A stretch of DNA of 63,354 nt from Pinguiococcus pyrenoidosus (Eukaryota; Sar; Pinguiophyceae; Pinguiochrysidales; Pinguiochrysidaceae): contig JAAMXY010000608.1 of assembly GCA_019677205.1 (NCBI GenBank), positions 1 through 63,354 on the forward strand. Direction: 5' to 3'. A program made the translations under genes and the position numbers. The first letter of the stretch is position 1, and each line of letters starts with the position of its first letter. Below the pieces are notes generated by a model. It saw nothing but the letters and a program-made list of their open reading frames with translations, made no database searches and was not told where the DNA came from. Of this stretch, positions 306-50,451 are shown piece by piece.

Positions 306-3300
306 ATGAGGACGTCTCCCTCTCGGGCGACAAGGCGCCGGGGTGGGAAAGTGGGGGGGAAATCCCTTCGAGACCGCAAAGTGACGCCACCCCCTTTTCT
401 TCAACTCGGAGGGCAGCAGCTCGGGTTATCATCCTTAAACGGCTCCGAGTACGACGGGGAAGATGTGCGCGAGGCTCTGCGGCCTCAGCTGCAGACGGCC
501 GCGCCGAGCTCTTTGTTCACTTGGGCCGAGAGCGGCCGGGCTCCCTTGCCGCAGATGAAGTCTTCGAAGGACTCGCCGGCCTCTCGTGCGGGGACCAGAC
601 CGTGGCTTGGCCACGAGGCGCCCGAAAGCTCGCATTTGTCCTTGGATTCGCCCAGTGACGCCAGCGGCGCCACCCCGAAGTGCACGGTATCCGGCTTGAC
701 GACCCAGAACGCCCTCACCGTGCGCAGCGCATCGGGCACCTTCACCCGGATCGGCGGCCGCTTCGACAAGACCGAGGTGCCCAAGACGAGAAAGGACGCC
801 CGGCAGCTGGAGGCCGAGTACCATGCAGCCCTGGCGCTGCTAGACAAGAGCAAGGCAGGGCGCGCGGCGGTCCATCCGGGAGAGACGGAGCTCTTCGCGC
901 TCCAAGGAGAAGTGGACGCCAGCTTCGCGGAGCGGAAGACGCTCAAGGCGCTGCTGTCCGCCGCTGCGGAGCAGTCACCACCCAACTCGATGCCGAAGCT
1001 GGGGATGGATCAGGCGGCGTGGAAGGCGGCCAAAGAGACACTTGTGGCGTGTCTGTACACCCAGAAGCACACGGATCTGGTGCTAGGACAGCTGAGCGAG
1101 CAGCTGTCCGTGTCTTGCGTGGAGCACGGGCGCCTGCAGCGCGCGCTGCGCTCGCACTACGCCAGCGCTTTTCAAGCGCTGTGCCGACTCTTCTCCGACG
1201 CGCTGTGGTTCCAGGAGCAAGCGGCACAGTCCGTCTGCGCTCTCGAAAGGCATTTGGCCGAGGCGGAGCACCGGCATCAGCGGCAACTCCAGGACGTCGT
1301 CAGGCGCCACGAGCACGAGATCCTGGACGCGGACAAGACGCTCTCCCAGTTTCGCCGAGAGGCGGAGGCTGCGGCGGCGGCGTCCATTGCGGAGACGGAG
1401 CGTCTGCGAGAGACGCTTCGGACGCTGAACGACATCTTCCGCGACATCCAGAGCAACGATGACACCACATCCACACACGACTCCCGCGCGCGAGTGAAGC
1501 GTCTGGAGGCGCAGCTGGCCACGCAGGCCGAGGAGCTCAAGACGCTGCGCCAAGCGCAGACGCGAGCCAGGAACAGCGAAGTCACCGCTCTGGTGGCACG
1601 AAAAGAGGCCCAGGCCGCGCGAGAAGAGCAAGCGGCGTTGCTGGCACAGCTGCAAGAGAAAGACCTGTTGCTCCAGACGCTCATGCAGCGCGAGACGGAG
1701 CGCCTGGCCGCCGAAGAGGCGCAGCGCGCGGAGGCAGCGGAACGCAGCGCTCAGCAGCCTGAGGTAGACGCCGATCTGCCTGAAGAAGAGGTGGCCGCGG
1801 AGATGAAGAAAGGAAAAGACGAGGTCATGTCCAAGCTGTTCCTGAGGTGGAAGAAGCAGCTGGACGCAGAGATGGAGCTCATCTTGACGCCCCCGAAAGC
1901 GCGCAAGGCGCCGCCGCGCGTGGCCTGCCAGGCCTTTCGCATGCTGCTGCCCAACTTGGGTGACTATAAGCCGCCGAGAGCCGTCCGCTGGACGCGCAAG
2001 TGCATGCGCTGCCTGTTGCACGCCCAACTGCGCCAGCGTCAGCTACTGCAGTCATCCTCTCTGCTGACGCCGCGCTTTCCCGAGTTTGTCTACGCGTGGT
2101 TCGAGCCTCCGGAGCACGAGCTGCTGGCGCTGGAGGCGCTATGCGACCGAGCGGCTTTGCTGCGCACGGCGGACGAGGACCGCTGGGGTTTCTACTTCGG
2201 CGTCAAAGCGCTGTCTCGCGAGAGCGCCGAGGCCAAGCTGTTCTACACCCTGCTGGACGAGACGCACGGAGACGACTACGCCAGCTTCTTCTTCCACGCC
2301 GTCGCGCTTGTGCGCGCGGCGGCGGGAAACAGCCTGCGCGCGCAGTGGCACGACACCAGCGACGCACCCACCGCCGCCGCTATGCCTGGTCTTCAAGACC
2401 GCGAGAGACTGGAGCCGGCGGAGACAGACCCAGGCAGCCACTACGACGCGTGGAGGGCCCAGTGCGTGGCGCGCGGCCTCGACGGCGGCCAAGAAACTCT
2501 TTGGCTGGACCTGGACGTCGCGCTGTCGGTCACGCAGCAGCTTCTTCGAGAGGCTCCAGAGCAGCAGCGGCAGCTGTTGCGCGGCGCAGTGCTCAAGGCG
2601 GCAGTGTCTGCCGAGGAGCGCTTGCCTGGGGGCGCCGAGCGCTGCGTGGACTTGTTTCTCTACCTGCGTCTGCTCATGCATCTCTTTCAGCAGGAGCAGG
2701 CGCGCCGCAGCGCCACGCTGCGACTTATGTTCGAGACAGCCGACCAGGCGCCACTGGCCACGACTGCGCCTCCGGGCGGTGCTGGCAAGTCTGGCACCGG
2801 CTTGGACTTCCCGCAGCTTCTGAGCATCATGCGCACGTTGACGCCGCAGGTCAGCACCGCAACGTGCGCCGCCGTGTTCCGCGACGCCTTCGAGGCGGGA
2901 GATGGCCAAGTGGCGCTAGACGCCTTTGTTGCTGCTGCGCAGCGGCGGCAGTTCTTCAGCAGCACGCTCAAGCTGCAGCCACATGTGCTAGGTCAGCACG
3001 ACTTATCCCCTGACAGCGGGGGCGGCGGAGGCCAGGCGGGCCTCCGCGCCGCCGTGCACTTTCACTTCACGGTGAACCTGGCGTTCTTCAAAGAGGTGGG
3101 CAGTCGGCTTCCAGAGGCGGCCCGGAGACATGTGGAGAGCCTCGTGCAGGACGTCAGCGACGTGCTGGGCTCCTCGAGCAGTCCTGACGACCAAGTGGGG
3201 AGAGCGCTTCGCGACGGCAATCGGGCGCTTTTCGCCTATCGCCGCTTGCTGCTGGCGCTGTTACAGCAGCGCATGCGTGTGCACGAGCAGAGCGCAGTGG

Positions 3301-5126
3301 GGCCGTGCCGTCTGGTGGACGGCAGGGCCATTGGGGCCAGTCGCCTCTTGGCGCAGAGCACTCGGGAGCTGGAGCTGCTGGGCGAAGTGCTCGCGGAATT
3401 CACCACGGGCCGCAAGGCGGCCGGAGTGTGGAAACTAAAGAGGCAGCTGGCCATCTCCAAGACGCAGAGCGCCTGGCGGAAGCGCCTGGAGAGGCTCCCT
3501 GGACCGCCCTTGCGCGTCATCCTACGGATGCGAAGAGGCTACATGTGCGGCCGCGGCGCCATCCAGAAGCGGAGGGTCTTCTATCTCTCCCGTTGGACGA
3601 CCGACATGATCGCAGCGTTCGTGGTGGATACTTTATGGCAGTTCTGTGCAGGCGACGGATCTATGGCACGCGGTGGCGACGGCGCCGCCCAGGAGGTGGG
3701 TAAGGAGGCGCCAAGTTGGAACGTGAGGGTCCTTCTCGGTGTCGACGACGCCGAGGCCGGGGAGAGGCTGTCGGCGCTGCTTCTGCAGTTCTTCCTCAAG
3801 CGCTTTGGAGTGCTGAGCGTGGCGGAGAGACTGCTCCACGACCTGTTCTTCAACGTCCGAGCGCTGGCGCAAAGCAGCAGCCGCGTCCGCCTCTTTGCGC
3901 TCTTCACTGGCGTGGAGCCGACTCCCCCTGGGGATGATGCCAACGGCGATGGGAGAGACTCCTCGCTTCTCTCGAGTCCCTGTGCCTTTGGGTTCTACCT
4001 CCAAGCCCTGGCGACTGTCGCTCACTTCGCCGCCTTTGGAAGAGGAGCGCCAAAGTTCTTCCCCAGCACGGAGGTGTCCAGGCAAGGACAAACGGCGTGG
4101 CAAGCGCCGTGCTCCCTACTCCACCGCGCGGCGAACTCGCTGCTGGCCGGAATCGTGGGCGCTCGGCATGCCGGCTTCGCCAGGCTCCAGGATCAGACGG
4201 CGTCCATGAAGAAGGGCGAGCAAGGACTTGTCGACGTGGACGACTGGCTTTGGATGCTCATGATGCTCTGGTCGTCGCTTGCCAGGGACTACCTGGACGC
4301 ACTGAAACGACTTCTGGATGTCAAGTCGCCCCTCGAAGTCGAGGCGCTCCTCGTATGCGAAGCCAATTTCGCCGCCTTTGCAGCGCAGCTGCCAAGACCT
4401 CTGCACGATGACCGACCCGACCAGCGAATTGCGTCGTCCATTCGCCAGGCATACACGAAGGCGATACATCTTGCAGAGGGGCTGAAGAGGAAGGCGCCGC
4501 GGGAAGCCGTGGAATTGGGATGCCAACTATTCGTGCTGGGCGCCATCAGCGGGGAGCGCCTGACGCCGGACGCTCCAGAAGGCCCGCCGGACGTCACTTC
4601 ATCAGATCTCGTTGCAGCTGTGTTGGAAGCGGACTACGATGTCGAGCGCGGCGTTGCCATTGCCGCTTGCCTGTGGACCCAATTCAAAGACTGCACACGG
4701 GAGTTCATCCGAAGCGTGGAGGATCGCGTGGAGCAGGCGCCTCAGGAACAGGATGCGGAAACCAAGAAGCTGTTGGGGGCCGCAAAAACTGCACACACGT
4801 TCCTGAGCGATCGGGAGGAGACGCTCGACTGCTTCATGACCGCGCTCTTCTCCTCCACAAGACGGGAGCGGAACTCGCTTAGTGGCGACAACTCTCCGGT
4901 GGATCGCACGAGCGCCAGCGCGGCCGGAGCAAGGCCGGAGGGGCTGTCAAAGGAGGAAGTCATCGAATGCAATATGGCGCTACGAGAGCTCTACGTCTCC
5001 GTGTTTCAGCTGCAGCTGCGTACCACTCCTGGGGTGTCGCCTGCTGAAATTGAGTTCATCCGTGATCCCTGGGTCGCCGGCAAGAGACCGCGCGATAGGC
5101 AAAGAAGAAGCTTCTTTCAGCAGTGA
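306..5126 (+). CDS. large coiled-coil protein of unknown function
   Basis: One uninterrupted frame of 1606 codons runs from the ATG at 306 to the TGA at 5124. I chose this ATG because the frame upstream offers only a TTG. The first ~170 residues are Ser/Pro/Arg-rich and look disordered. Roughly residues 310-520 are a heptad-rich coiled coil dense in Glu, Ala, Gln and Arg. The last ~1050 residues are mostly helical and Leu-rich, with no repeat I can name. A segment near residues 830-880 (FPQLLSIM, then DAFEAGDGQVALDAF) looks like one degenerate EF-hand-like loop. I do not recognise the family. Size and composition would fit a cytoskeletal, ciliary or scaffold protein, but that is inference. 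The absence of introns over 4.8 kb is notable beside its intron-containing neighbours. Confidence 0.85.
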   Translation: MRTSPSRATRRRGGKVGGKSLRDRKVTPPPFLQLGGQQLGLSSLNGSEYDGEDVREALRPQLQTAAPSSLFTWAESGRAPLPQMKSSKDSPASRAGTRPWLGHEAPESSHLSLDSPSDASGATPKCTVSGLTTQNALTVRSASGTFTRIGGRFDKTEVPKTRKDARQLEAEYHAALALLDKSKAGRAAVHPGETELFALQGEVDASFAERKTLKALLSAAAEQSPPNSMPKLGMDQAAWKAAKETLVACLYTQKHTDLVLGQLSEQLSVSCVEHGRLQRALRSHYASAFQALCRLFSDALWFQEQAAQSVCALERHLAEAEHRHQRQLQDVVRRHEHEILDADKTLSQFRREAEAAAAASIAETERLRETLRTLNDIFRDIQSNDDTTSTHDSRARVKRLEAQLATQAEELKTLRQAQTRARNSEVTALVARKEAQAAREEQAALLAQLQEKDLLLQTLMQRETERLAAEEAQRAEAAERSAQQPEVDADLPEEEVAAEMKKGKDEVMSKLFLRWKKQLDAEMELILTPPKARKAPPRVACQAFRMLLPNLGDYKPPRAVRWTRKCMRCLLHAQLRQRQLLQSSSLLTPRFPEFVYAWFEPPEHELLALEALCDRAALLRTADEDRWGFYFGVKALSRESAEAKLFYTLLDETHGDDYASFFFHAVALVRAAAGNSLRAQWHDTSDAPTAAAMPGLQDRERLEPAETDPGSHYDAWRAQCVARGLDGGQETLWLDLDVALSVTQQLLREAPEQQRQLLRGAVLKAAVSAEERLPGGAERCVDLFLYLRLLMHLFQQEQARRSATLRLMFETADQAPLATTAPPGGAGKSGTGLDFPQLLSIMRTLTPQVSTATCAAVFRDAFEAGDGQVALDAFVAAAQRRQFFSSTLKLQPHVLGQHDLSPDSGGGGGQAGLRAAVHFHFTVNLAFFKEVGSRLPEAARRHVESLVQDVSDVLGSSSSPDDQVGRALRDGNRALFAYRRLLLALLQQRMRVHEQSAVGPCRLVDGRAIGASRLLAQSTRELELLGEVLAEFTTGRKAAGVWKLKRQLAISKTQSAWRKRLERLPGPPLRVILRMRRGYMCGRGAIQKRRVFYLSRWTTDMIAAFVVDTLWQFCAGDGSMARGGDGAAQEVGKEAPSWNVRVLLGVDDAEAGERLSALLLQFFLKRFGVLSVAERLLHDLFFNVRALAQSSSRVRLFALFTGVEPTPPGDDANGDGRDSSLLSSPCAFGFYLQALATVAHFAAFGRGAPKFFPSTEVSRQGQTAWQAPCSLLHRAANSLLAGIVGARHAGFARLQDQTASMKKGEQGLVDVDDWLWMLMMLWSSLARDYLDALKRLLDVKSPLEVEALLVCEANFAAFAAQLPRPLHDDRPDQRIASSIRQAYTKAIHLAEGLKRKAPREAVELGCQLFVLGAISGERLTPDAPEGPPDVTSSDLVAAVLEADYDVERGVAIAACLWTQFKDCTREFIRSVEDRVEQAPQEQDAETKKLLGAAKTAHTFLSDREETLDCFMTALFSSTRRERNSLSGDNSPVDRTSASAAGARPEGLSKEEVIECNMALRELYVSVFQLQLRTTPGVSPAEIEFIRDPWVAGKRPRDRQRRSFFQQ

Positions 5127-5335
5127 CCTGAAAGGCCACAAGGAGGAACAAGAAGAAAAGAGAGAAACGATCAACCCTCGTCTCTTTTGTCGACAGGACT
5201 TCCTCTCCGCTGCTGACTTCCTTGTTGCTCTCCAAGTCATTGGCATGCCCGTGGTTGAGGTAGAAGCAGGCCAAGGTACACGCGACCAGGGGCGGAACCA
5301 GCGGGACCGAGTCTTCTTTTGGCCCTCCATGAACA

Positions 5336-6249
5336 CTACCGCTTGACCCATGCGCCCGCTTTCCTGGCCTTCTTCAAGCCTGGTTTCTTCTCTTCCTTCA
5401 CGCGCGCATCTCTCGTGAGCAAGCCGGCCTTCTTCAAGATCGGCCGATAGCCAGGGTCCCATTGCTGCAGCGCACGCGCCACGCCCAGCTTCAGCGCGTC
5501 GCCTTGTCCGGTCGTGCCTCCTCCCCTAACCCGCGCCTGCAGCGAGTTGCACAGCAGATTACACCAGAGTCTAGCTGTTTGCCCCAGCGTAAAAAGAAGA
5601 AAAACAACCAGAAAAAAAGGAAAAACAACCTAGAAGGGTACCTGCAAGTCAAACACGCCCAGGGTGTCCGTCTCCCAGAACGGCTCCAGCACTCGCTGCC
5701 GCATGCTGAAATCCTTGAAGTAGTTGGCCAAGCTCCGCCCATTTATGGTGATCTGGAGGATCGGACGTTGCTTAAGAGCTGCGGCGTTTTCAAGCGTATG
5801 GCAGCTGCGTGCACTCGCCCACCTTGCCCGCTCCTCGATACAGACTCACTTCCGCCGAGCTGGATTTCCTCCTCCCGATGGCGAAGACTCGCGAGCTTCT
5901 CTGTTTGCCCTCGGTGGCCTCGTCAGCGCTCAGCGGCTCCATTGGGACATTTTCAACCTGAAACTTTGTGTTTGGGTCGCAGAAGATTACGGATCAGACC
6001 ACGCCACCGAACGACACCACCCAAAAGACAAAGAGAAAGGCCGCAAACCTTGTGGTAGTCTCTGGCCATCTCCAGCAGATGCTCCGCGGCCGCAGACAGC
6101 TTGGCAGTGGCGTCGTGACTGCCGGACGAGCTCCGAAGCGTGGATGAGAACCCACGACTCGACACCGCGGCTCGCGGCGCCGCGGCCATCTCAACACGAG
6201 GCGCGAGAAAGCGCGAACGCAGCCAAAGTGCGCGACCAGAAAGAGCCAT
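5336..6249 (-). CDS. MRPS9: mitochondrial ribosomal protein S9 (uS9m)
   Basis: Four exons (6249-6049, 5957-5823, 5752-5642, 5536-5336) join in phase into 215 aa. The C-terminal exon reads [20 protein letters not shown], then [29 protein letters not shown], the signature of bacterial-type S9 with its basic tail reaching the P site. The third exon from the end carries the family motif [10 protein letters not shown], and the next starts ITINGR, split from GAGK exactly as the protein requires. The first ~40 residues ([17 protein letters not shown], then RGFSS) are an Arg/Ser/Ala-rich amphipathic presequence with a typical matrix-protease site, so a mitochondrial rather than plastid address is likely. 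The gene is divergent from the P450 gene, with only 204 bp between start codons. Introns are 105, 70 and 91 nt. Confidence 0.93.
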
Positions 6250-40518: not shown

Positions 40519-41001
40519 TCACATGGTGAAGCTCATGAGCTCGACTTCGAAGATGAGGGTCGCGTTCGGAGGAATCACAGGTGGGTAGCCGACGCTACCG
40601 TAGGCAAGCTCGGGGGGCACGGAGACCTTGGCACGCTGGCCTCGGCTCATCTGCAAGATCGCTCGATCCAGCCCCTCGATCACATTTCCCGAACCAAGCG
40701 TGAACTCGAATGCCCGGCCCCTCTTCCGAGACGAGTCAAACTCCGTCCCGTCACTCAGCTTGCCCTCGTAGTGAATGCGAACCGTCTGCCCAAGGGAAGC
40801 GGGCCTGTCAAACAGATGGAATCTACCCAACCCAGATCCGAGCAAATCGGTTGAGCTTACCTGACCCACCGTAGGAAAGTTCGTCGCGTTGCCAGGTTTG
40901 ATTGTGACCACCGAGACCTCTGGCGCGTCGATTCCGTCATCTGCGCCTTCGAACTCCTGGTCCTCGGCGCCTGACTGGCTCTCAGCCTGAGCTTCCGTCA
41001 T
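40519..41001 (-). CDS. FKBP-type peptidyl-prolyl isomerase
   Basis: Two exons (41001-40861, 40785-40519) give 135 aa. The FKBP fold is evident from VRIHYEGKLSDGTEFDSS, FTLGSGNVIEGLDRAI and VPPELAYGSVGYPPVIPP with terminal LIFEVELM. Active-site positions Tyr (IHYEG), Phe/Asp (FDSS), Val-Ile (NVIEG) and Tyr (AYGS) are kept, so it should be catalytically active and FK506-sensitive. The 75-nt intron is a multiple of three and open, and reading through would insert 25 residues between PTVGQ and TVRIHY. The N-terminal ~25 residues are acidic and Gln/Glu-rich. No targeting signal is seen, so a cytosolic or nuclear location is likely. Confidence 0.93.
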   Translation of the reverse strand: MTEAQAESQSGAEDQEFEGADDGIDAPEVSVVTIKPGNATNFPTVGQVSSTDLLGSGLGRFHLFDRPASLGQTVRIHYEGKLSDGTEFDSSRKRGRAFEFTLGSGNVIEGLDRAILQMSRGQRAKVSVPPELAYGSVGYPPVIPPNATLIFEVELMSFTM

Positions 41002-41291
41002 TTTGGGGACCTTCTTTGCCTTGTCCTCCCGACTCTTCACGCGCGAACTAAGGACTGCTTCTGCCTTCCAAGGCCCCCAAGATCAGGCAAACCTCCCACC
41101 CAGCCTCGATCGGAGCCTAGAGCAACGCGCTGCCTCGGTCTTTCGAATCCATGCGCATCGGGGCAGGGTTCTTTTGCCCAATGAAAGATGGTGGGCGCCG
41201 GCGCGAAGAGAAGATGAGACACGGTGATTAGTTGGTGATTGGCCTTGTGTGGAAGTTGCGACCACCACGATTCAGCCCTTTGCTGCGGGAC

Positions 41292-41319
41292 GCTGGTCAC
41301 TGGTCACTGGTCACTGGTC
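41292..41319. repeat. 7-bp tandem repeat CTGGTCA x4
   Basis: Four consecutive CTGGTCA units, the last with a final G, lie upstream of the NADPH oxidase gene. Confidence 0.85.
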
Positions 41320-41710
41320 GGCCGTCATCCTTTGGGGAGGCTTGCTCCTGGCTGGATCTCAGGGCTTCAGATCGTGTGATCATGCGAAACCCCCGCTGCC
41401 ATCCCGAGACGAGAAGGCGGTTATCATTGGCGCAGTCCAAGCTGCAGAATTCCGATGGAGGCTGCCGCTGCATAGCACAGGGCACGGACCAACGAGCAAG
41501 GCCCAAAGCCCGAAGTCCACAAGCAAGCCAGCACACAGCTCGTGTCCTTTTGCAGCATAGTGTCGATGCCCGACGTCGATGCAAATTCTGAAAAGCACCT
41601 GAAGCACTGTGATAGGGTGTAGCCAAGCCAAGAAGTGCCGGTTCTACCCAACCGCAGGAAGGAGGCGACCGTGTTGGGTTGCATTGTGGCCCAGAAACTG
41701 CTCTAAATAG

Positions 41711-42057: not shown

Positions 42058-42082
42058 ACACCTAGGTGTGACACCTAGGTGT
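42058..42082. promoter_or_regulatory. duplicated 12-bp palindrome 20 bp before the NADPH oxidase ATG
   Basis: The perfect palindrome ACACCTAGGTGT occurs twice in direct tandem with one G between. This is the usual look of a dimeric transcription-factor site or a 5'-UTR element. Confidence 0.5.
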
Positions 42083-42102: not shown

Positions 42103-45100
42103 ATGCAAGCCTTGGCGCTTGCCCCGTACGAGGCGCCGAGTCCGAACTTCGTGTCGCTTGACTTCGGAGAGGTCCGACCAAGCAGTGTCCTGCCCACGTC
42201 GTCTTGCTCATGCTCACACGATTGCCTTTCATGTCCGATCACTTTCAATGCTCGATCAGATTGTGACTATCGAGGAGAAGCACGCCAATGGATACTTCTA
42301 CGTGCACAAAGATTCAGGCCCGGCGGGATGGGTTCCCGTTTCCATCGTCAGGGTGAGCAACCCGTCTCCCCTGCAGGGGAATGATGATATGCGCTCATCA
42401 GACTCGCCATACCTCTAGCTCGGAACGCCGCACACCGTGATTGGCGAATTCTCCGCTGAGAGCGAAGAGGAGCTCTCTCTTCGGGTCGGTCAGCTGGTCT
42501 GGCTGTTCGAGTCGGAGGTGGGAGACCGCTCTGGCCTACGTGCCTGCTGCTCTTGAGCCAGCTCTTCTCATCCATTCGGGTGCCCCTTCCTTTGTCACCT
42601 CTGCCTATTGCTCTCTCAGGCCGACTGGTCCTTTGGCGCGTCGAACGACATTCAGGGTTGGTTTCCCAGCAGCTTCGTCGAGAAGCATCACGACAGTCAC
42701 TTGACGATTCGGTAAGTCCACACGGCGTTGACGCGCAGAGCGCTTTCCACATCTCAATGGAACCTCACCGCATGACGATTCGCAGCCAGTCGACCAAGCC
42801 TGATCCGGGCAGTGCGAACGTGGGCGTCGTTCGCGACCGCGTGGAGCAGTCGAGGATGAAGAGCATGCGTTTCCACGTGGCCCACGACGACCTGCGACCG
42901 AGAGCGAGTCAAGCGAGGGCCAATCACGCAGTACAGACTCTGAACCCCATCTCGGAGACTAGGGACGATGTCGGTCCCAACCCGAGCGAGGTGCATCGGA
43001 GCCTCCTTCCGACGAAGGAGATCCCAAAGAAGGCCGCCAATTCGTCGCGGTTTTCCACCTTGCTCAAACCGACCCGTCGAGAGGGCACCAACGGTGATCG
43101 TCGTAAGTCTCTTGTCTGTCATTGGAATGTCGCCGATCTTGCATTGGACGTGTTTGGTTTGCCTGACCTGTCTCATCGCCACAGTGAGCCTCGCCAGGAG
43201 ATCGTCTCTGCGCGCAGCTCCAAAGATCGCCAAACGGGAACCGACATACGGCAAAGCGCTTGACGACGGAAATGTGTATGACCGCTTCGGCATCGAAGGT
43301 GCGAAGAGGCTTCTCGGCAGAGCATCTCTTAGCATCCAGAGCCGTCGCTGAAGTACGCTTTGCCCAATACAGGAGTCAAGTCCAAGCCACTGTCTTACAC
43401 GCTCTGGGCCCACAACATGGCGCTCACCACCGCCGTCCTATGCGCATTCCTCGCCCAGTTCGCCGTTCTTCTCGAGGAGCCGAAGGTCTGGGACTGCAGT
43501 GTAGACGGTGGGCGGAACATCAGCGACGTGTACCTCGTCCAGTCTGGCTGCGGCCAGACCCTCGACTTCACCTGCCCGGCTGCGGTAGACGACAACCGCA
43601 ACCTCGGCTGGACATACGCGGAAGACACCTACGGCACGGGACAGGATCTTCCCTGTTGCTGCACCGACGGAACTTCACCGGAACTCGACTTGAACGGCAA
43701 TACGCTGGTAGGTTCACAAGCCCTAAGATGGACAAAGACCGGACCCGGCCAGCGCTCAATCCCTTCCCCTCGAGGATAGGTTGGGTACATCTACATCTGG
43801 CTCGCCGCTCTCATCTTCGTGTGGGAGAACCCCACATTTGGCTTTGGCAATTGGCAACCGGTGAAGACAGAGCGAGTCGGCAGCGCCGCATGGGTGTCCA
43901 AACTCTGGGTCTTCTGCTTCAATCGACGAGTCAGGTGCCGCGCCTAGCCCCCAGCTTCTCTGCTGCGCCCGGAAGGTCAGCGAAGTACTCATATAATCTC
44001 GTGACGTAGACTTCAGTCCTTTCTGTACATCGGCGCCGGCTTCCTGGGATGGTTTAGCGACGCAACGATGCTCATCGGCCTAGGCCTCTTCGCAACGGGC
44101 CTGACGTATGCCATCGCCGGATACAAGCTTGAAGCTGGGGACAACGGAAGGAACCGAAAGAAAAAAAGACACGAAGAGCAGCTCACCAAACGCGAGGAAT
44201 TGGTAAGGAGGCTTTTCCACCGAGCGTCTGGTCCTCCTTGATTCGAAAGAACCGCTGGACCTCTGACCATCTCTCGACGCAGACGGAACGGGAGGAGGAG
44301 CTCAGCCGGACTTTCCTCGGCCGAGCGGATCTCTTCTTCGAAAGGAACCCTGAATGGATGTTTCTCTGGCGGCCCAAGACGTGGTACATACGGGCGTCCC
44401 AGGAGGGAGATCTTGCGACTTACGTCTGGGTCACGGTCTACGTTCTGGTCAACATCACCATCGTGGTGTACACAGTCTTCAAGTGGAATGGTGACCGCGA
44501 CAAATGGATCAAAGACCTCTTGGTGGGTTTGGCCGTGTTCGGCTATGCGATCTTCTCCGCAGAATGAACTGATGGTTCGCGGCATGCCTAGGACGGGACG
44601 CTGAATCTGTGCCAGGGAGACGGCGATGTGGAGGTGACCGCCGAATGCAAAGAGAATCGCCTCTTCGTGTACCGCGGTGTCATCTCCCGAGCCGGAACGA
44701 TTGCCAAGGGCTTCGGCATGTGCCTGAACTTCAACTGCTCCCTGATCGTACTGCCCATCCTACGCGGCTTCCTGCGCTGGTTGAACAACACCTGCCAGGT
44801 AGACTGCGGCCTCGTTCTTCTGCGCAGGAGCGCTCGCGCTGACGACGAGCGCCCTAGGTGAACACAGTGGGGGAGAACAGCAACCCGCTCTGTGCGAAAA
44901 TCCTCTCCGTGCCGATTGAGCGGTACATTCCCTTCCCAAAGAACGTTGAGTTTCACAAACTGATTGGTAAGCCACCCGTGAAAGCTGACTTGGGACGTCC
45001 TTGGGCCGACGTATGCGATGTCCCGAGCAGTGTGAGACGCTGACGCTCCTTTCAACGAAGGCAAGACCATCTTCATCTGCGCGGGTGGACATACGCTGTT

Positions 45101-47759
45101 CCACTTCTACAACTACTGGCTCACCAGCGAGTACAGCGCCGACCGCTTCGCCAAATGGGGATGGAGGGGCACGTCCTTTGTCACAGGTCCGCCGGTTCTT
45201 TCATGCCTGTTCTTGCAGACGCTACCAAGCGGCTCCAAGCCTGACCCAAAGCTTGCTAGGAGCCTTCATTTGCATTGCGATGTTCTTCATCTACTCCGCC
45301 GCGCCGTCCGAGGTGAAGCACAGCAACTACTACATCTTCTTCTGGAACCACCACTGGTTCCTCGTCTTCTTCTTCATGCTGCTGCTGCACGGGCCGATCT
45401 ACTGGGTCTGGGCGCTGATACCGCTGGTGGCGTACCTGCTGGAAAGATTGGTACGTACGCCGTCGAGCGGCGCAGAAGCGACGGAGAACTGACCCTGTCG
45501 CCGTGTAGGTCCAGTCCTTTCTGCGCGGGCGGCAGCCATACAAAGTTCTCCATGCGAGTTTCACGCCGAACTATCAGGGGATCAAGAAGAAAACAAGCCT
45601 CGGTACGGCGACATCGGTGTCTCGATGGGGTGGGGAGTTGGCTCTCTCCTTGCTGATCGCACGCTGCGCACGTTTCCCCAAAGGAATTCTCCATTTTCAG
45701 TTCTGCCCGACGGACACGCGTGACTGGGAACGCATGCAGGAGGGCATGTACCTGTATCTGAACTGCCCCACGGTGAGCCCCAACGAGTGGCACCCCTTCA
45801 CCATCTCGTCGGCCAGGGACGATCTCTTCGTGAACACCACGCTGGTCGAGAAGGTGACGGGCTTCCCGGTAAGCTCCAAGTCACGTCATCGGCACCCAAA
45901 AGTCGGGATAGTTGCTGAAGGACGTTTTCACGATGCGCACTGCCCGGAAAGGTCTATCTCGTGCCGGGCAGGACGAATGAGAAGCCCCGTTACCTTCGCG
46001 TCGACAAGCCGCACACGGATCCAAATATGAAGCCAAAGGACTTCTTGGAAAGGCACGAGGTACTCTGCGCTTTGAGCATGCCGCTACCCAGCTTCGGTGG
46101 CACCCGTAAATCGCGCTTTCCCCCCTTTCCAAGGTGGACTACATTGACTACGTGTCCTGCCACATCAAAGTCAGCTACAAGCCGTCCAGCTGGACGCGAC
46201 GACTCCACGAATATCTTAGGTAGGGCTCCTTTGCGCTTCGAAGCTCCGGCTCAGGCGACGAGAAAGCTTACGATGCAATCCTCCAGGGACATGGCTGGGG
46301 GCAGGAACCACATGCTTCCTGGAACCCCGCTCTTTGAGAACTACTATGACCCCGCCTTCAAGGATGAGGGCATCATTCCGTACAGCTGCTTCTTCTCCGA
46401 GTACGACGAGGTAAGCCTCCACGCACAAAATGCTACAAACGCTTCGTCCACACCAACGGCAAAGCTGGTGCTCGCAGAGAGGAGATTTGCAGATCGGCAA
46501 AATCAACGACGTGTGCCAGAACCCAATCATCCGTGTCGACGGACCCCACTCGGCGCCGTCGGAGCACTACTTGCAGTACAAGACCGTCATGATTGTCGGT
46601 GCAGGAGTAGGTGCGCAACGTCGCGCAAGCCTGAAGCAAAGGCGCCATCAGGAAGCTTACGCCATTTGCAGGCATGACTCCGTGTGCGAGCGTCTTGACC
46701 GCCCTTCTGAAGTATCGATGGCGGAAAGGTGGGGAACATCGCGCGATCGCATGCATGCCACCGGGCGTAAGCGTTTTCCGGTAATGGACAGGGCAGTCCC
46801 CGGAGATTCTGCATTTCTGCTGGCTGTGTGCCCACGAAGACCTGGAGGGCTTCGAATGGTTCGTGCACATGGTCACCGATCTGTGCTACCGCTTGAAGGT
46901 GAGAGGGCGGTTGCACCTTGCCCTCAAAGCAGCGGCAGGATCTGACGAAGGCCCCGTACAGGTCGCCCGCACGCTCGAGGATAGAAACATCGACGCGTCG
47001 GGACAGGAGCGCATGCACGCCTTCGCGCAGTACTATTGTGAGATCAACATCTTCGTCACTCGCGCGCCGAAGGAACCGAAGCCCTCGAAGCCTTTGAAGC
47101 AGCCCAAGAAGGTGCTTGAGGAGTTCTCAGGATTGGTGACCGAGTAAAGAGCCTCCTGTAACAGTTGTGTACCAAAGGACTACTCCGTGGAGGCATCTCT
47201 CAATGGAGTGGAGCCCGATTTCGATGCAGGGGAGCTCTTCCGCACGCTACAGAACCCACCGGTGAGAGAGCATCGCCGGACGTCATGACGGTCAGCGAGG
47301 GTGCTGACAGCGCAACAGGTATCCTCGAAGAAGTGGAAGGACATCCTCGGCATGTCGCGCACGAACACTAGCGCCGCCAACGCCAAGAATCGCCTCGGCG
47401 ACGTTTTCGTGTGGGGCGGCCGTCCGCAGTGGGATGACATCTTCAAACAGGTACTGCTCTCTTCCTTGTCGCGCTTCTCTTCCGGCAGGGAAGCTAAGTG
47501 GGGAGCGCGCTCTTCCTTCAGATTCGATGTGCCATGGAGTATCCCCACATCGGTGTCTGCTTCTGCGGAGCGCCGGTTATCGGCAACGATCTGGCCCGCT
47601 GCTGTCGCACCTACAGGTGAGCTTCGGCATTGAGGCTGTCCCCCGCTCCACCTCGGCGACTCATCGAAGCACGGTGTCTCTCTTGGTAGCCGAGAGGATC
47701 TTCCAGGCTTCGAGGACACGCGAGACTGCCGGTTCTTGCTGCACAAAGAGAACTTCTAG
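42103..47759 (+). CDS. NADPH oxidase fused to tandem SH3 and p22phox-like domains
   Basis: Twenty-seven exons splice without a phase error into 1268 aa. Exon ends are 42171, 42352, 42517, 42711, 43102, 43298, 43707, 43934, 44202, 44522, 44798, 44966, 45186, 45450, 45602, 45868, 46059, 46219, 46410, 46610, 46728, 46898, 47135, 47261, 47450, 47616 and 47759. Order: SH3 domain 1 (residues 1-54, ALAPYEA to GWVPVSIV), SH3 domain 2 (55-110, Trp90, GWFPSSFVE), basic linker (RRSSLR at 228-233), p22phox-like helices (281-305, 385-399, 440-476) with a Cys-rich loop after the first, then the NOX core. Heme ligands are His682/His696 and His758/His771 with canonical 14- and 13-residue spacing. FAD motif HPFT is at 859-862, GAGVGMTP at 1026-1033, and HKENF at the end. 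A PxxP-rich insert lies at 1120-1134. It would move electrons from NADPH across a membrane to make superoxide. Confidence 0.92.
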
Positions 47760-48409: not shown

Positions 48410-48693
48410 GATCAAAGCTTTAGAATAGCCTCATAGCGCAGGTCGACGTTCGGAGAGGGGCGTTCTTGGCGTTGCACCCCGAGTCCCGCAAAGGCGGTGT
48501 ACGTTGAGAAACTCCCTTGAGGGCCACGTCTTGTGACCGTCCTAAATACTTCGTTAATGATTGCCGAGACTGACTGATTATTCCATATATAATATGGAGA
48601 TTTATAATTTAAAATTATGTGTTGCGCTCAGTTCCCCCACACATGTCTTTCGAGGCCGTCTGAGCGTTGTGGGCGTCTCTTTTTCCGCGCCAG
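48410..48693. promoter_or_regulatory. divergent promoter region with AT-rich island
   Basis: AT-rich DNA at about 48541-48622 (CCATATATAATATGG, a 15-bp palindrome-like core, then TTTATAATTTAAAATTATG) sits 70-150 bp before the MFAP1 ATG. It is a likely core promoter. Confidence 0.5.
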
Positions 48694-50451
48694 ATGTCTT
48701 CAGGCTTCGGCGGGCGCGATCTAGCGCTCGCGCTGAGCTCGCAGGTCGGCGATGCCTACTCGCTGAGGCACACGAAGGACGCCTCGGTGCAGATCGAGGA
48801 CGAGCAGAAACCAAAGCTGGACAAGTCGCGCAAAGTGCTGCGCTATCGAAAGGGCGTCCAGCCGCGTTTCGCAACTGACAGCAGGTGCGTTATGCTGGCG
48901 AGACCTGCGTTCCATTCTTGTATCACATGTGGACGCTGTCGCCACAGAGATGACGACGACGGCTTCATTCGGCCGGAGATTGGCAGCGCCAGCGCGGGAA
49001 AAGTCCGACTTAAGAACGCCTACGTGCCCGCGGAACAGCCGAAAGTGGTGGACGTGGCGTCCGACCCGCGCCTGCTCCGCCTTCAGCGCTCGCGCAGGCC
49101 TGTAGAGTCAGAAATCGTAGAGGATAGCGGCTCGGAAAGCGACGACTCGGACGACAGCACGCAGCAAAACCGCGTGCGCGCCCGCAGACGGGTGGTTCAG
49201 ACGGAGATTCTCGAGGCCAGCGACTCGGACTCCGACAGTGAGGTGTCACCCGTCAAGTCCGAGGGGCCAACGGACCTCTCCCGTAGCAAGCTCAGCCCCG
49301 AGATGACGACGAAGCTGACCCTGCAGGTAGGCACGACGAAGCAGACGGACAGCACCGAACCCCAAAGCCTCATGACTTGCTCGCTACCGCCTCGTGTGCG
49401 ACAGGCGCCGGTTCCGAAGCCAATTGCCCCGAGGATAGAGTTCGAGCAGAAGCAGAAGCCTGGGCAGAAGCAGAAGCCTTTGCAGAAGCACGACGAGGCA
49501 CCGGAAGACGAGGATTCCTCGGAGAGCGCCACAAGCAGCTCCGAGGAGGAGGACGACGACGACGACGACGATGACGACTTGGATCTTATGGGAGGGAGCC
49601 TTCCGATGCTGCGTCCAAAGTTCATTCCGAAGGACAAGCGAAAGCTCAAAGGAGCGGAGGAGGAGAAACAGCGGAACGAAGAAGTGCAGTTCGAACTGGA
49701 ACGCGCACGGCAGGAAGAGCGGCGACGGGAAACTCGAAGACTGGTCGCGCTGGAAGTGCAGAGAGAAGCAGAGGCGGGACATGAGGTGAGAAGGTTTCAG
49801 GAGTATTTTGGCGCATCGGGGCCACGACTGAAACCGCTGTCTTGGCACCGTCAGGCGGATATCACCGACAACGACAGCGAGGCCGGCATGCCGGACGACA
49901 TGGATGTGGACGATGACGAAGTGGAGTACGAGAAGTGGAAGGTGCGTGAGCTGCGGCGGCTGGTGCGCGACAAGGAGGAGAGGGAGCGAAGGGCGGAAGA
50001 AGCTAGGGAGACTGAGAGGAGGCGGCAGATGACCGACGACGAGATCATGCGTGAGGACCGCGCGCTGGGAAAGCTGGCGGGAAACGACACGAGCCGAAGG
50101 GACGAGAGCAAGCAGGGATTCATGCAGAAGTACTACCATAAAGGGGCTTTCTTTATGGACGAGGAGTCGTTGGACAAGCTGAAGAAGTCCAAGGATCCTC
50201 GGAAGGAGGATGTGCGGAGGAGGGACTACACCGAAGCGACGGGCTTCGACAAGTTCAACATCGAGGCGCTGCCGGAGGTCATGCAGCGCGCAGGACGCAA
50301 GTTTGGTCTCAGGTCGCAGACGAAGTATACGCACCTGAACGCGGAAGACACCACAGATCATCGCGCCGAGCGCCTCGATGTGGTGAAGCGCTCCTTCGAT
50401 CAGAATCGCAGCGTCTTTGATGCCAAGAGGAAGAAGCAGCGGCGGACATAG
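48694..50451 (+). CDS. MFAP1: MFAP1 family spliceosomal protein
   Basis: Two exons (48694-48884, 48948-50451) give 564 aa. The C-terminal third matches the family: RPKFIPKDKR, DEVEYEKWKVRELRRL, then FMQKYYHKGAFFMDEE, LPEVMQ and SQTKYTHLNAEDTTD. The N-terminal half has acidic Ser/Asp blocks separated by Arg-rich stretches (SGSESDDSDDS, DSDSDSE) as in animal MFAP1. The 63-nt intron is a multiple of three and open. Removing it joins DSR to DDDDGFIRPE. MFAP1 is a component of the B-complex spliceosome and binds Prp38. The acidic run at 49548-49575 comes from a GAC repeat. Location is nuclear. Confidence 0.93.
   Translation: MSSGFGGRDLALALSSQVGDAYSLRHTKDASVQIEDEQKPKLDKSRKVLRYRKGVQPRFATDSRCVMLARPAFHSCITCGRCRHRDDDDGFIRPEIGSASAGKVRLKNAYVPAEQPKVVDVASDPRLLRLQRSRRPVESEIVEDSGSESDDSDDSTQQNRVRARRRVVQTEILEASDSDSDSEVSPVKSEGPTDLSRSKLSPEMTTKLTLQVGTTKQTDSTEPQSLMTCSLPPRVRQAPVPKPIAPRIEFEQKQKPGQKQKPLQKHDEAPEDEDSSESATSSSEEEDDDDDDDDDLDLMGGSLPMLRPKFIPKDKRKLKGAEEEKQRNEEVQFELERARQEERRRETRRLVALEVQREAEAGHEVRRFQEYFGASGPRLKPLSWHRQADITDNDSEAGMPDDMDVDDDEVEYEKWKVRELRRLVRDKEERERRAEEARETERRRQMTDDEIMREDRALGKLAGNDTSRRDESKQGFMQKYYHKGAFFMDEESLDKLKKSKDPRKEDVRRRDYTEATGFDKFNIEALPEVMQRAGRKFGLRSQTKYTHLNAEDTTDHRAERLDVVKRSFDQNRSVFDAKRKKQRRT

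Follow-up and report, generated by a model that had tools for sequence, protein, structure and literature searches.

Gene model at the locus and its support

The stretch of DNA analysed here, hereafter the window, comprises 63,354 nucleotides of contig JAAMXY010000608.1 of Pinguiococcus pyrenoidosus (assembly GCA_019677205.1; 23.7 Mb, 768 contigs). On its forward strand, one gene is predicted to encode a tandem of SH3 domains, a membrane domain homologous to p22phox and a NADPH oxidase (NOX) core, in this order. Its exon structure was curated by hand and comprises the following features:

42103..47759, + strand: the whole gene, predicted SH3-SH3-p22phox-like-NOX, 27 exons and 1262 amino acids (aa), with GT-AG introns, consistent phases and each exon aligned with the relative P0001
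42115..42352, + strand: first SH3 domain (SH3-A), residues 5-54, exons 1-2 (Pfam PF14604, residues 5-53)
42431..42685, + strand: second SH3 domain (SH3-B), residues 59-109, exons 3-4, with W90 and GWFPSSFVE (Pfam PF00018 at 64-104, PF07653 at 61-109)
42686..43380, + strand: linker, residues 110-264, poorly conserved and without PxxP (comparison with P0001, motif scan)
43381..44145, + strand: four-helix membrane domain with homology to p22phox, encoded by exons 7-9 (about residues 265-470; based on profiles, a search of PDB and predicted folds of relatives)
43474..43701, + strand: residues 296-371, a Cys-rich loop that joins helix 1 to helix 2, with six Cys and one NIS sequon, probably extracellular
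44424..47759, + strand: NOX core, residues 537-1262 (Pfam, PDB search, motifs)

In the curated model, all introns are GT-AG and span 42-102 bp, and the only stop lies at the chain end; the uncertain junction is intron 23 (47136-47177), with a length of only 42 bp. A preliminary description of this DNA had likewise counted 27 exons with consistent phases, which the curated model bears out, while its chain length of 1268 aa has to be corrected to 1262 aa. Gene prediction by dynamic programming, trained on a poor codon set, gave a wrong chain of 884 aa (stop counted), and hand curation was used instead.

Searching with the 1262-aa chain (words from the first 500 residues; 8000 candidates scored) gave two matches at E <0.001, namely P0001 (ENA, 1231 aa), sharing 50% identity over 100% of the window protein, and P0002 (JGI, 814 aa), which stops within the NOX core. 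Each is one predicted protein with the order SH3-SH3-linker-four helices-NOX. In an exon-by-exon comparison, 27 of 27 exons aligned with P0001, identity being lowest in exon 5, which belongs to the linker (21 identical residues among 91 aligned), and in exon 4 (8 among 29). Moreover, P0004 of Triparma verrucosa, used as a query against the six-frame translation of the host genome, matched exon 7 (43378-43542, E 2.4e-4), with which the p22-like domain begins.

Two or three adjacent genes for an SH3 adaptor, a membrane protein and a NOX could have been merged by the exon model or the assembly, and both the weak conservation of linker exon 5 and the 70 of 93 p22-bearing relatives in which no SH3 was found would be in line with such a merger. 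However, the order recurs in P0001 and P0002, each of which is one predicted protein, and P0029 (Cafeteria), P0038 and P0051, whose names we take to be of transcriptome-assembly style, carry SH3s (one, one and two, respectively), the p22-like domain and NOX on a single chain. The p22-like domain also precedes NOX in 74 of the 114 proteins that were not used for profile building. A merger thus appears extremely unlikely, and the comparison of predicted proteins supports the encoding of all three parts by one gene.

The oxidase core and its p22phox-type partner

Regarding the catalytic part, the Pfam models Ferric_reduct (660-757), FAD_binding_8 and NAD_binding_6 all scored above cut-off. The heme-binding His pairs are H671/H685 and H747/H760 in the numbering of the window protein, not 682/696 and 758/771 as described before, and the motifs HPFT (848), GAGVGMTP (1020) and, at the C-terminal end, HKENF (1258) were rightly noticed. 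These Pfam models are common to NOX and ferric reductases and would equally suit a core that reduces iron instead of making superoxide. Nevertheless, the NOX-indicative positions named in excerpts of PMC3591440, His-119, Thr-178 and Gly-179 in NOX2 numbering, have their counterparts by eye in H689, T716 and G717, and the closest solved relatives of the core are NOX2 and NOX5. A ferric reductase is therefore very unlikely, and the prediction of a superoxide-generating NADPH oxidase is well supported. The assembly holds a second NOX-like gene (L013, G000:C359:145500-151400, at about 2688-5626) with Ferric_reduct, FAD and NADPH matches and ending in SENF; a scan of two of its frames gave no SH3 or p22-like match. 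NAD_binding_6 also matches, less strongly but above cut-off (28.3 bits), a 478-aa open frame at L002 (G000:C164:110457-110858, - strand).

The membrane segment ahead of the core, described before as having three helices, has four according to the structure predicted for a relative, and its sequence homology to p22phox was found by profile comparison, including hhalign. The alignment comprised 19 of 21 available relative segments of at least 140 aa (P0014 and P0020 left out), P0006 being omitted as a broken segment; P0032 and P0033 entered the second hhalign set with segments that overrun the domain (351 and 205 aa). The predicted fold of relatives likewise corresponds to the four-helix fold of p22phox. 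Whole-protein structure comparison listed no p22phox chain, the list being filled by core matches, and the domain was then folded alone.

An unrelated membrane domain merely resembling p22phox could account for several negative results. PF05038, the Pfam model of p22phox, did not appear for the window protein at E values as high as 1, nor for the segments of P0001 and P0002; it was listed in only 2 of 19 relatives, with a best E of 0.3, below the curated cut-off. A single-sequence PDB search with the four-helix segment of the window protein was unsuccessful as well, the link to p22phox emerging from profiles only, and no proline-rich SH3-binding tail follows the last helix of the window protein (no PxxP before 949). 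Given the profile matches and the predicted fold, we regard a chance resemblance as improbable and the four-helix domain as a well-supported homologue of p22phox. In the window's own genome, PF05038 found no separate p22phox, a result of little weight, since introns are not considered in this search and even the fused domain escapes the model.

Thus, as in human NOX2-p22phox (flavocytochrome b558), a NOX core would be joined by a four-helix partner domain, both parts being homologous. In the human system, however, p22phox is a separate subunit and the complex consists of two chains, whereas here the domain belongs to the NOX chain, N-terminal to the core. Further, human p22phox has a short loop between helices 1 and 2 where the window protein has the Cys-rich loop, and the window protein has no PxxP after helix 4.

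The SH3 pair, the linker and possible control of the enzyme

Both SH3 domains, whose motifs GWVP (46) and GWFPSS (100) had been noted correctly, were recovered by Pfam (PF14604, E 5e-14, two stretches within residues 5-109, above cut-off). Most SH3 domains carry a Trp where SH3-A, by eye, reads GYF. The best PDB sequence match spanning both SH3s is p47phox (7yxw, E 1.1e-5; 1ng2, 2.4e-5), and single SH3s, that of myosin IB among them (E 1.8e-5), match about equally well. In the predicted model of the Triparma relative (pLDDT 78.6, pTM 0.61), the best Foldseek matches of the SH3s were again p47phox (1wlp_B, 2.6e-6; 7yxw, 3.0e-6), with sorbin (3.5e-6) close behind and low TM-scores throughout. 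The pair therefore weakly resembles p47phox, from which orthology does not follow. Two adjacent SH3s are shared with the organisers p47phox (NCF1) and NOXO1; in contrast to these, the window chain lacks a PX domain, which Pfam did not list even at E up to 1 (SH3-A starts at residue 5), and its SH3s are built into the oxidase.

No TPR or PB1 domain scored above cut-off in the Pfam scan of the window protein, either. The term "whole NADPH-oxidase complex" in the preliminary description consequently goes too far, while SH3-SH3, the p22phox-homologous domain and NOX in one gene are supported. Of the Pfam families it had named, SH3, Ferric_reduct, FAD_binding_8 and NAD_binding_6 were found above cut-off and only p22phox was unlisted. 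The catalytic core is that of NOX5, RBOH and DUOX, but unlike in these EF-hand oxidases no EF-hand was found in the window protein (Pfam at E up to 1, plus one motif pattern). Among the matches listed, none of the 8 EF-hand-annotated proteins has the p22-like domain. That protist NOX usually carry EF-hands, as claimed before, is doubtful, as passages of PMC6685483 report NOX without EF-hands in five red-tide flagellates and suggest that "algae may have another mechanism". A candidate control module fused to the enzyme, as here, bears on the control of such EF-hand-less algal NOX. In excerpts of PMC12684733, the superoxide found outside algal cells is connected with flavoenzymes and light.

With high probability, the gene product is a superoxide-type NADPH oxidase of a stramenopile, judging by its relatives probably an ochrophyte, with a p22phox-type partner in the same chain, N-terminal to the core and behind two SH3s. 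The p22 domain would pack in cis on the oxidase helices, as p22phox does on NOX2, which could fix a 1:1 ratio and stabilise the core. The N-terminus would be cytosolic, because the number of helices before the core is even and the Cys-rich loop would lie outside, and the SH3s would consequently be exposed to the cytosol. At this position, they could replace EF-hands as regulatory input, with SH3 contacts in place of calcium control. One option is that the SH3s keep the enzyme off via a proline-rich stretch in cis, which is possible for P0001 and P0002, since both have such a stretch. Alternatively, the SH3s could recruit a proline-rich cytosolic activator, which is likelier for the window protein, as its linker without PxxP would place the ligand in another protein.

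Internal SH3 contacts in the window protein, as proposed before, are accordingly unproven, given the lack of PxxP in its linker compared with 9 in P0001 and 15 in P0002. P0001 has three PPPRP, a motif also present in the human p22phox tail. The window protein has PxxP at positions 949, 1114 and 1119 only, and the one at 1119, a class II motif on an NADPH-domain loop, was rejected as an SH3 ligand in cis because it is not above chance. The SH3s might also merely tether or localise the enzyme without regulating catalysis, in keeping with an SH3 number of 0 to 2 across p22-bearing proteins and with the missing Trp of SH3-A. Nothing speaks directly against this alternative, which we nevertheless consider rather unlikely, as the tandem order and the resemblance to p47phox favour a regulatory role of the SH3s, a role that is itself hypothetical.

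Other fused or extended oxidases differ in arrangement. The Naegleria NOX (M17) has an SH3 within its NADPH domain according to passages of PMC3591440, and Acrasis kona P0107 has an SH3-like stretch in the same domain. These enzymes likewise carry an SH3 on the NOX chain, but within the dehydrogenase and not N-terminally, and no p22-like domain was detected in P0107. By eye, a loop rich in Pro and Lys (about residues 1112-1128) occupies in the window protein a place similar to that of the SH3-like stretch of P0107. Four extra helices are reported for red-algal NoxD (PMC1940245, in part) and, between the FAD and NADPH domains, for preNOX of red algae and stramenopiles (excerpts of PMC3591440). 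Like the window protein, these algal NOX lack EF-hands and possess four additional helices; in the window protein, however, the helices stand ahead of the core.

Spread of the fusion and evolutionary implications

For the counts, a pool of 133 proteins (132 plus the window protein) was used, fed by a search with the P0001 core (28 proteins including itself) and one with P0028 residues 90-886 (best 120 of 124 listed). A p22-like profile built from 19 of them matched 93 of 133 at E <1e-5, or 74 of 114 without the builders. The 40 proteins without a match include short or truncated ones, the 8 with annotated EF-hands, Pythium insidiosum and Acrasis kona. Upstream of the p22 domain, 70 of the 93 have no SH3, 17 have one and 6 have two, as counted with a small home-made profile that may miss degenerate SH3s and with some proteins truncated; P0010 and P0015 have an apparent second SH3 by eye. 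Triparma verrucosa (Bolidophyceae), Chrysophaeum taylorii (Pelagophyceae), Cafeteria (Bicosoecida), Mucochytrium quahogii (Labyrinthulomycetes) and, as fifth named p22-bearing member, Hondaea fermentalgiana (presumably a labyrinthulomycete) are all stramenopiles (5 of the 5 looked at). The Hondaea protein P0035, which the p22-like profile matches, is labelled "NADPH oxidase 5" in NCBI, with no EF-hand annotated. P0027 (1541 aa) and P0046 (1416 aa) bear a long additional N-terminal part ahead of SH3, p22-like domain and NOX, that of P0027 including a beta-helix match.

In a tree of 26 rows (25 of the 133 cores plus human NOX2; left-out proteins include P0034, P0057 and P0110), for which the end of the p22 domain in P0032 was placed manually, the 18 p22-bearing cores fell on one side of a branch with support 100/100. 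The window protein paired with P0001, and NOX2 lay outside the p22-bearing group, joining P0123 (named Entrophospora candida); constraining NOX2 to the p22 clade was disfavoured (AU p 0.0105, few rows). As far as these few rows go, the oxidase part is not a NOX2-type gene that carried p22phox along. A tree of 53 of the 133 cores (39 p22-bearing rows, short search) requires three changes in p22 presence, with P0034, P0057 and P0110, in which no p22 was detected, among p22-bearing rows. For P0034 and P0057, loss or replacement of the partner inside the p22 clade is possible. PF07452 is annotated in P0034, P0057 and P0076, none of which has a detected p22-like domain.

Neither a p22phox-NOX fusion nor the SH3-SH3-p22-NOX order was found described in open-access full texts, most subscription journals and preprints lying outside this coverage, which agrees with the earlier claim of an undescribed order; a fusion of the SH3-p22-NOX type was not seen in excerpts of PMC3591440, either. 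The architecture is real and conserved and, for a known enzyme family, apparently so far undescribed. Passages of PMC9421330 state that p47phox, p67phox and p22phox are restricted to opisthokonts, which p22phox homology in stramenopiles contradicts, and the order of events in NOX evolution thereby becomes testable. According to excerpts of PMC2121648, plants and Chromista show no distinct regulatory subunit, and a proposed Dictyostelium p22phox-like protein is unconvincing. Whether p22phox and SH3-based NOX control are far older than opisthokonts, with the stramenopile fusion keeping, or having independently rebuilt, the assembly known from the separate phox subunits of animals, we consider evenly balanced. 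If so, p22phox would be an ancestral partner of NOX that other lineages split off or lost, or its domain would have been transferred between distant lineages, and the view of calcium control first, with p22phox arising only in opisthokonts, would need revision. In addition, a natural one-chain NOX-p22 would be a convenient object for structural work.

The gene is flanked by an FKBP gene on the - strand (frame 40519-41082) and by MFAP1 (48664-50451, + strand). The DNA upstream of the gene shows an additional feature:

42059..42081, no strand assigned: doubled palindrome CACCTAGGTG-TGA-CACCTAGGTG, ending 21 bp upstream of the start codon

In shuffled windows, a single CACCTAGGTG site has an expected count of 0.01 each. 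Its doubled form occurs at this locus only within the 23.7 Mb assembly; it is a possible regulatory site. By eye, CTGGTCA is repeated four times in tandem at 41293-41320, upstream of the gene, the last copy ending in G.

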